A program made the translations under genes and the position numbers. Shown here piece after piece: positions 16,116 to 20,477 of a stretch of 64,000 nt of DNA. The notes beneath the pieces were generated by a model, which worked only from the letters and a program-made list of their open reading frames with translations, was not told the DNA's origin and searched no databases. The DNA lies in NCBI GenBank assembly GCA_027604705.1, contig JADHYV010000007.1, forward strand, positions 124,001 to 188,000, written 5' to 3'. The stretch comes from Allomyces arbusculus (Eukaryota > Blastocladiomycota > Blastocladiomycetes > Blastocladiales > Blastocladiaceae). The number at the start of each line of letters is the position of its first letter. The stretch's first letter is position 1.

Positions 16116-17624
16116 CTTGGTGGTTGAGTGAAGGGAGCGAGCAACGGTCGAGCAAAGTGGTCGTTGGTGGAGAGAAGCGACGGGCCGGGGCGGGGTGCCG
16201 GTTATAAAGGGGTGCGGGGGGACCGGGACCGGGTTCTCGGTTCACTCGAGCACAACGCGCGCGTCTGATGAGGTCGAGCACGCGAGCGCGAGCACGACGG
16301 CGGCGGCGTTTGCGGCGCTTGTGGCCGAATGCCGCCACGTTGAAGCATTTCCCTGGATGGCGCGCACTCAGACGCGTTGCGCGCGTGCTTTGAGGTCGCG
16401 ATTTTGCACGAGGGTGCGCGCCGGAACAGTGGGCCGAGTCGTGTCGCAGGTGGAAAAGTCTGTTGGCCACGCCGACCTGGACGTCGACGTGGATTGTGGT
16501 CGAGAGACCAGCCGGTTTGGCAGTCGCGGTGGTGGCGCCAAGTTGGAGTGGGCTTTTGCTTGGATTCGCTTGCATCATCCTGCGCCGCCGGTCGGCCTGA
16601 AACTTGAAGGGACCCGGGTCGGGACTTGCATCACAGGAAAGGACCCAGGCGAAACAAGTCATGGCGAACCATTGACACACACTGTTTCCGCGACAGCGCC
16701 AGATCCCTTGCGAAACGTGATCGCGTCCCCACCCCGATCGTTCGCCCTCAGCCGTTCACTGCCAGGGCCACAGCGACCCGCTCTTGCTGGTTGACGTCTC
16801 CTCGTCGTGGCCGACGTATTGCAGGCACGGGGCACCTTGCTCCCTCCTCTTTACGCGCTCGTTGAACGCTGCATTCAGGGTGCGCCGAGATCAGGCGAGC
16901 ATCACCAGCGCAAACCTCAGTGCCCATGTTATCCAGCGCCTCTCCCGCGCCGGCGCTCTTGTTTCCCCTTGTCCGCACCTGACCCGCCAAGTCGCGAAAA
17001 GACTCAACCAAGACCCCGTCGAGCAGTATTGAAATACCCGCGCCATCCGCGCCCTCTTTCCCGAGCGGCGCACCGCCACCTTGGGCGCGCGATGGGCCAC
17101 TGTTTTCGCGCGGGTCTTGTGCGACGACGCGCAAGTGTCGCCACCCCCACACCCATGTGAAACTGACGTTGCGCGTTGTTCTGGAACTGGTAGAGCGTGT
17201 AGAGGTACACGGTCCCTCGCTTCGTCCTGATCTTTGGTCAAACGTTGGGCATCAGAGAGAACGATGTGTGCGACAACGTTGGCGTTGCCGCCGTGCGGGT
17301 TGCTCGTGCAACGTGCCTTTTCTTGGTCCGTGACGTGGTTCGCGTGAAACCAGCGCGACTGATGCTGGCCTGAATGGACACGCTCAAGCATTCTCGTGGC
17401 GCGCCAACCGGGAGGCAGGCGGTGGAGAGGAAACGGTGCGTGGAGAACAAAATTGAGATGTCATGACGGACAGACACACGCATCACGACATGCAAATACA
17501 ACACCGATGCCCCTCCCCCTCATACCAAAATCGAATACCTCGTCGCTTTCTCGACGTCAATAATGCCAGTCGTAATCTTGAATGGCGCCAATGCGATAAA
17601 TCTAAGTGCGACGCGGCAAGGACG
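16116..17624. other. Intergenic spacer, no gene recognised
   Basis: About 1.5 kb between two minus-strand genes. It contains long but Arg/Ala-rich open frames on both strands (for example 16195-16794 plus and 16891-17391 minus) with no family resemblance. A short stretch near 17150-17210 on the minus strand (YLYTLYQFQNNAQRQFHM) looks protein-like but cannot be extended into a gene. Confidence 0.45.
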
Positions 17625-19108
17625 TTAACGTCCCGAATCGCCCCACAGTGACAAGGTCCAATCTGCACGTACATCATCCACATCCTGCTCCTGCGCCGCC
17701 AGCATTGCATGCTCGCGCGCCGACAGCACCGCCGCCTCGGAATCCGACACCGACATTTCGCTCGGCGCGGCAGCCCCCTTATTCCCACCGGCCCCACGCC
17801 ACCGCGTGCTCGACGCAACCGACGAGTCTGATCCGCGACGGAAATGCCGCCTGACGACCGCCGGCGGCGACGGCGGGCACTCGGGCACGGGCAGTCGCGG
17901 CGGTGGTGGGGGCGGAACCAGCGGCGGATGGCGCGGGTCGAGAAACGCGGCGACGACCAAAGGCGCGGCGGTCGTCCGCAACGCCGGTTCCGAAGACACA
18001 TTTGACGCGAGATCGTCCATGTCGGCGGCGAGCGCCATGGCCACGGCGTCCTCGGACGACGCCCACGAGTCGACGGTGCCGATGTCGGTGTCACCCGAGA
18101 TCGACCAGGCATCGGCGGTCCCGACGGCCGAAGACGCGCAGGAACAGGTGGACCGCGGTGGACGAGTGCCGCGTGGGCGTAAGGTCGGGCTGCTAGGGAC
18201 GCGGTCACGGTCGTCATCCATGTCGTCGTCGATGCCGTCGCCGTCCGACAGCTCGTCGTGGTCGGTGTCGTCGTGGTCGTCGTCCTCGTCGTCGGCGTCG
18301 CGCGCGTCGTACGGTTTGGATGCGGAGGGGCAGTTGGGAAGACACGTGCCGGACGCGCCGGTGGGGAGCGGGCCTTGGTCCTAAGGTCGTTGGAAATGAC
18401 ACAGTGAGCCACCGGTTCGTCTCGCATGATGCATTGCAAGCACGATAGCGCACCCATCGGTGCAGCTGGCGTCGCCACCGACGAAGCTGGCCGACCCAGC
18501 TACGTGTGGAGCACTCTTGGTTCTTGTCGGGCGTGTGCGGGTCGGTGCGGCGTCGCTTGTGCCTGTTCAAGTTTAGGTCCGCGTGAGCAACCGCACTCAC
18601 CGGCAGCAAACGGCCCAAGCAAAACGTACCTTGGAATCGTGGCCGTGAAATTCTGGTACCCAATCGTGTTTTTGCCATAATCAATCTGCTTTTGCCGCTG
18701 CGCGAGCCGGCGGTCCCAGGACGCGGGCGCCGACCCGAGTTTGGGTCGCTCGCGCGGCATGCGCGACGTGTCGGGTGCCGTCGCTGCAGCTGCCATGGCC
18801 GCCGTCAGCGACGACATGGGCGGCGACGACCGGCCGGCGGCAATGGGCGATGTGGCAGGCGGCGAGAGCTGTGCACCGTCGTCGCGCACAAACCCGATGC
18901 CCGGGTAGAAGGCGGGCGCCGAGAGCTTGAGCTGCGCGGCGCGGCGGCGTGCCGGGGATGATGCCAGTGGGGACGTTGGGGAGGGGCCACTCGCACGGTT
19001 GTGCGCGCTGGGCGGCGGCGGGGTCGCGGCCACGTCGATGGTGAGCGGCGAACGCGGTGGGGTGGTGGCCGCGCTCATCGCGGCAGCTTCGTCGTCGTAC
19101 TGCGGCAT
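17625..19108 (-). CDS. SLBP: Histone mRNA stem-loop-binding protein (SLBP)
   Basis: Exons 19108-18630, 18562-18454 and 18380-17625 (minus strand) give 447 residues. The RNA-binding domain spans ~130-197 across both introns. Exon 1 ends with QRQKQIDYGKNTIGYQNF. Exon 2 has HTPDKNQECSTRSW and GQLRRWRRQLHRW, and exon 3 opens with DQG. These align with the metazoan RQKQINYGKNTIAY...TPNK...SRRSWD...LWKVALHFWDPP layout, including the TPxK tetrapeptide (residues 170-173) whose Thr is phosphorylated in animals. By family it binds the 3' stem-loop of replication-dependent histone mRNAs for processing and translation. The N-terminal 128 residues and the acidic then Pro/Ser-rich C-terminus are low-complexity; animal SLBP is shorter (~270 residues). 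In-frame sequence continues upstream of 19108, so the exact start is uncertain. A model without the 109-nt middle exon would lose half of the domain. Confidence 0.92.

Positions 19109-19417: not shown

Positions 19418-19450
<33 letters not shown>

Positions 19451-19986: not shown

Positions 19987-20477
<491 letters not shown>

Follow-up and report, generated by a model that had tools for sequence, protein, structure and literature searches.

A gene for a histone stem-loop-binding protein and hairpins at canonical core histone genes in the fungus Allomyces arbusculus

The window, a 64,000-nt stretch of the Allomyces arbusculus genome, carries on its minus strand a gene for a histone stem-loop-binding protein (SLBP). 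The gene has four exons and three introns and encodes 446 residues (Table 1). A sequence-only reading of this DNA had found the RNA-binding domain complete after removal of two introns, with RQKQIDYGKNTIGY, TPDK, TRSW and LRRWRRQLHRWDQ in order, spread over three exons with a 109-nt middle exon; exons 1–3 are correct as drawn there. The 3' end had to be redrawn. That reading ended the gene at a stop at 17625, with 447 residues, but this position is intronic and the C-termini of the homologues are encoded at 17601–17557, so we rejected its last exon. In its place stand a third intron and a fourth exon that match two Allomyces homologues: the C-terminus, IYRIGAIQDYDWHY, is identical in the SLBP homologues of A. 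macrogynus and A. javanicus. The suggestion that automatic gene prediction could miss such a gene did not hold for these relatives, as both Allomyces records contain it, that of A. javanicus under an SLBP name.

Table 1. The SLBP gene (positions in the window) and the histone-fold loci of the assembly (by contig). Names of the loci without a hairpin are our assumption, judged from their sequences.
Feature	Position	Strand	Length or stop-to-hairpin distance	Remarks
SLBP exon 1	18630..19108	-	479 nt	ATG at 19108, as in the sequence-only reading; resembles the A. javanicus start MPQ
SLBP intron 1	18563..18629	-	67 nt	GTACGT...ACAG
SLBP exon 2	18454..18562	-	109 nt	encodes TPDK, TRSW, LRRWRRQLHRW
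SLBP intron 2	18381..18453	-	73 nt	GTGCGC...TTAG
SLBP exon 3	17673..18380	-	708 nt	acidic low-complexity C-terminal region
SLBP intron 3	17602..17672	-	71 nt	GTACGT...TTAG; absent from the sequence-only reading; homologues read on to IYRIGAIQDYDWHY
SLBP exon 4	17557..17601	-		encodes IYRIGAIQDYDWHY and the stop (at 17557)
SLBP RNA-binding domain	18375..18715	-		residues 132-198, exons 1-3; PF15247
H2A	C16		94 nt	divergent pair with H2B
H2B	C16		102 nt	divergent pair with H2A
H3	C135		159 nt	divergent pair with H4
H4	C135		101 nt	divergent pair with H3
Second H3	C166		113 nt	truncated by contig end
Second H4	C55		86 nt	
Non-canonical histone-fold locus	C46			presumably NF-YC-like; no hairpin
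Non-canonical histone-fold locus	C56			presumably divergent H3-like; no hairpin
Non-canonical histone-fold locus	C4			presumably divergent H3-like; no hairpin
Non-canonical histone-fold locus	C62			presumably H2A-like, several introns; no hairpin

The divergent neighbour of the SLBP gene, at window positions 19987–20355 on the plus strand, is a gene interrupted by introns that we take to encode an LC8-like dynein light chain. Upstream of the SLBP gene, at 19418–19450 on the minus strand, eleven CTG/TTG codons form a run whose open frames read as poly-Leu or poly-Cys on one strand; the opposite strand gives poly-Gln, poly-Ser or poly-Ala.

Judged by its sequence, the gene encodes a genuine fungal SLBP. 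The spliced protein belongs to a single Pfam family, SLBP_RNA_bind (PF15247), matched at 1.6e-29 over profile positions 3–70 of 70, with a score of 102.2 bits where the cut-off is 27. A genome search with PF15247, which ignores introns, returned two exon matches above the cut-off (6.4e-12 and 2.4e-9), the first ending at contig position 142715, which is window position 18715. The solved SLBP chains 4L8R and 4TUX, which we take to be human and fly, respectively, matched at 3.6e-15 to 5.8e-14. Alignment with these chains showed that the arginine equivalent to human Arg181 is kept, in TRSW; we count this number from the threonine of TPNK, presumably position 171. According to PMC10388802, human Arg181 makes the sole base-specific bonds to the hairpin. 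The closest homologues are AMAG_07792 of A. macrogynus and, from A. javanicus, a protein recorded as 'Oocyte-specific histone RNA stem-loop-binding protein 2', to which residues 120–205 are 100% and 99% identical. Allomyces belongs to Blastocladiomycota, in the kingdom Fungi.

The same genome carries hairpins that match this protein. An exact search for GGCTTTTNTCAAAGCC across the whole 25.9-Mb assembly gave six matches, and the reversed pattern gave none. All six lie 86–159 nt past the stop codons of canonical core histone genes, namely H2A, H2B, two H3 and two H4. Our census of histone genes combined the Pfam core histone fold (nine matches) with a related model that catches H4 (four matches), and neither model added another canonical core histone gene to those six in this possibly incomplete assembly. 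The sequence-only reading had proposed scanning the histone genes for 3' stem-loops; the same perfect hairpin stands at every canonical gene found (6/6) and at none of the four other histone-fold loci (0/4), taken with about 1.5 kb either side of the match. Apart from these canonical histone genes, no place in the assembly has the matching hairpin. One extra hairpin-like site with two mismatches, C6:136967, was discarded, as no histone-like frame lies within 1.5 kb upstream on the same strand and the reversed control gave two. A search of the genome for linker histones found no match, which does not establish absence because the control genomes were silent too.

The hairpins are uniform in structure and sharply bounded in sequence. 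Folding gave all six a stem of 6 bp and a 4-nt loop, with z-scores of -3.0 to -4.5, and the H2A hairpin folds with a seventh, flanking pair. A 20-nt block, GGCUUUUNUCAAAGCCACAA, is invariant across the six genes except at N; it consists of the hairpin plus ACAA, and conservation falls immediately after it. Outside the block, just two isolated columns are invariant among the six genes. All six stems share one sequence, so compensatory changes cannot test the pairing.

The Rfam model of the histone stem-loop, RF00032, scored over nine histone-fold loci (some overlapping), found the five hairpins there at 21.8–25.3 bits, none of which reached the gathering score of 34 bits, and had no match at the other four histone-fold loci; the sixth hairpin lies outside the nine loci scored. 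The model has 46 positions, about 25 of them past the stem, where these six genes are mostly unconserved. In a genome-wide search at E up to 0.001, with 75 of 1,470 candidates scored, only the C166 hairpin matched; among 14 prokaryotic control genomes, one, a bacterium, gave a weak match. A match to RF00032 does not amount to proof by itself, and more weight rests on the exact pattern and on where it stands.

SLBP relatives occur across several early-diverging fungal lineages. We scored the 7,996 best word-sharing candidates in a protein profile search and listed the best 120 of 138 matches, which include at least eight named fungal SLBPs: Entophlyctis, Boothiomyces, Polyrhizophydium, two Batrachochytrium, Hyaloraphidium, Gorgonomyces and Rozella. 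The two Allomyces proteins bring the count to at least ten. Besides Allomyces, five of these genera belong to Chytridiomycota (three), Monoblepharomycota (one) and Rozellomycota (one). As Hyaloraphidium is not known to be flagellated, the pattern is 'early-diverging' rather than strictly 'flagellated'. No named Dikarya or Mucoromycota appear among the matches listed from this capped search, many of which are nameless. A separate protein search with a fungal SLBP alignment returned two proteins only, so the distribution given here stands on the profile search. Viral contigs screened for relatives of SLBP produced 91 pattern matches, none confirmed.

The alignments and match lists hold two further observations. 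Five chytrid SLBPs (P0055, P0068, P0079, P0090, P0092) share a motif of approximately SAADSIDTGxSTEINSxVESLLTQSS upstream of the RNA-binding domain, which is missing from the Allomyces row of the same alignment and is perhaps regulatory or partner-binding. SLBP-domain proteins among the matches listed also include a Taxus record and two 'Gb' records, which we take to be Ginkgo (P0064, P0070, P0100). Plants are said in a review to lack the histone stem-loop system.

A tree of the domain favours inheritance of the gene over recent transfer, though it cannot prove it. Among 35 SLBP domains compared over 70 columns, 10 of the 11 fungal rows, with Allomyces accounting for three, group with one environmental sequence at 92/83, which is not strong support. 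Rozella sits apart from this group with weak support (44/74), and fungi form a single group in none of the bootstrap trees. If the gene were a contaminant, or a recent transfer without a matching RNA target, the small share of fungal proteins among the SLBP matches listed would be in keeping with that origin. Its three introns speak against it, as do its near-identical counterparts in two Allomyces records, of which one sits on a contig of 1.3 Mb, the 560-kb contig to which the window belongs and the grouping of the fungal rows; the matching hairpins in the same genome do so strongly. We give this origin next to no credence.

Protein and hairpins together suggest how these histone mRNAs would end. 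SLBP would bind the hairpin GGCUUUUNUCAAAGCC-ACAA located 3' of all six canonical genes found. Cleavage of the pre-mRNA would fall just past ACAA, so that a tail of 4 nt without poly(A) remains; the bound SLBP would then serve translation and S-phase-limited stability, as it does in animals. Mature histone mRNAs of animals terminate in the stem-loop and a tail of 4–5 nt, according to PMC5636114, which makes a mature end just past ACAA the natural reading here. We estimate a probability of roughly 0.8 that the canonical histone mRNAs are hairpin-ended and SLBP-bound, the binding being deduced from the pairing of protein and element. The earlier proposal that this lineage kept stem-loop-ended histone mRNAs gains support from the presence of hairpins at all canonical genes found and at no other histone-fold locus; the cell-cycle regulation that it also named is presumptive.

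The same mRNAs could instead be mainly polyadenylated downstream, with SLBP acting only in translation or stability, or with the hairpin end as one of two. C. elegans offers a precedent: in its histone genes the hairpin is followed at short distance by a poly(A) signal, as described in PMC1924863. The introns of the H4 genes also lean this way. Both H4 genes (C55 and C135) contain one intron, 84 nt long in one and 90 nt in the other, inserted at an identical codon position after MSGRGKGGKG, and the H2A, H2B and complete H3 genes are uninterrupted; replication-dependent histone pre-mRNAs of animals have no introns, by PMC5636114. The conservation profile points the other way, ending exactly 4 nt past the stem as expected of a mature end there. 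Neither AATAAA nor ATTAAA occurs within 400 nt downstream of the six hairpins, where one variant AATATA follows the H2A hairpin, but this says little because the 500 nt that follow the SLBP gene itself lack both as well. We consider predominant downstream polyadenylation improbable and retain the hairpin-ended, SLBP-bound mRNA as the preferred reading.

For that preferred reading, the least certain step is the cut itself. It would probably be made by a general CPSF73-type nuclease guided by SLBP, without the animal-style duplex between U7 and a downstream element, a proposal to which we give about even odds. The six genes, compared ungapped over 100 nt past ACAA, show no conserved block that could be a histone downstream element, and one isolated invariant column. 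The search for U7 snRNA, Lsm10 and Lsm11 that the sequence-only reading had recommended yielded nothing positive among its weak matches, at a sensitivity too low to establish absence. With the short U7 snRNA model, the best match had an E of 0.78, below the cut-off, and 12 of 14 prokaryotic controls also matched weakly at the same threshold. The human Lsm10 query led to an SmD1-like locus (6.8e-7) and weakly to an SmD3-like locus (0.13), and human Lsm11 to nothing better than E 0.34. None of the 14 LSM-domain matches, which we name by their signatures, reads as Lsm10 or Lsm11, but the expected Lsm1 and Lsm4 were unrecognised too.

These results bear on a U7-dependent cut as in animals, in which U7 snRNA, Lsm10 and Lsm11 would be highly diverged and the downstream element degenerate. 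Such a cut agrees with the preferred explanation in all but its final step. The weakness of the tests speaks in its favour, given a short U7 model and a census that passed over housekeeping Lsm1 and Lsm4. The poor U7 score shared with most prokaryotic controls, the Lsm10 query that reached only SmD1-like and SmD3-like loci, the lack of any convincing Lsm11 match and the absence of a conserved column block past ACAA all count against it, and we hold a U7-dependent cut to be unlikely. An SLBP-guided cut without U7 is the version we carry forward, and the apparently missing downstream element makes Allomyces a possible test bed for cutting of this kind.

Allomyces arbusculus is one fungus with both halves of the system, the protein and its RNA targets, the latter at every canonical core histone gene found. 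A review states that fungi lack the SLBP/histone stem-loop system. Databases already contain fungal proteins with automatic SLBP names, and a fungal member of this family is therefore nothing new. We found no precedent in print for a fungal SLBP that goes together with hairpins at every canonical core histone gene identified; the literature searched, a partial coverage with subscription journals mostly outside it, contained no study of SLBP or histone hairpins in zoosporic fungi.

This mode of histone mRNA formation may be old in fungi. We tentatively propose, at slightly less than even odds, that hairpin-ended, non-polyadenylated, SLBP-bound and U7-free histone mRNAs are ancestral in the kingdom, with Blastocladiomycota, Chytridiomycota, Monoblepharomycota and Rozella retaining them and terrestrial fungi having lost them later. 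On this view, model fungi with their polyadenylated histone mRNA would show a derived condition. If the mRNAs do lack poly(A), the change to polyadenylated histone mRNA took place among the fungi themselves, and when and why it happened becomes open to study by comparison of zoosporic with terrestrial fungi.

The Allomyces system is built from familiar parts with several departures. Like human and fly SLBP, the protein has a complete RNA-binding domain with the RQKQxxYGKNT core, a TPxK motif, the Arg181 equivalent and the WxxxLHxWD end; it differs in reading TPDK where the human protein has TPNK, and in its long low-complexity flanks. The C-terminal IYRIGAIQDYDWHY is confined to the two Allomyces rows among 14 aligned. 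The hairpins resemble RF00032 in their GGCUUU stem, 4-nt loop, following ACA and position no more than 160 nt past a canonical histone stop, and depart from it in their sub-gathering scores, in having no conserved downstream element visible and in occurring in intron-containing H4 genes. Unlike the intronless hairpin-bearing histone genes of animals, both H4 genes here combine an intron with a 3' hairpin, and set against U7-dependent processing in animals, the system differs in these introns and in showing no downstream element. Davila Lopez and Samuelsson reportedly described hairpins in protozoa and green algae in 2008, and the SLBPs of green algae, oomycetes and other protists share the same domain as the Allomyces protein.
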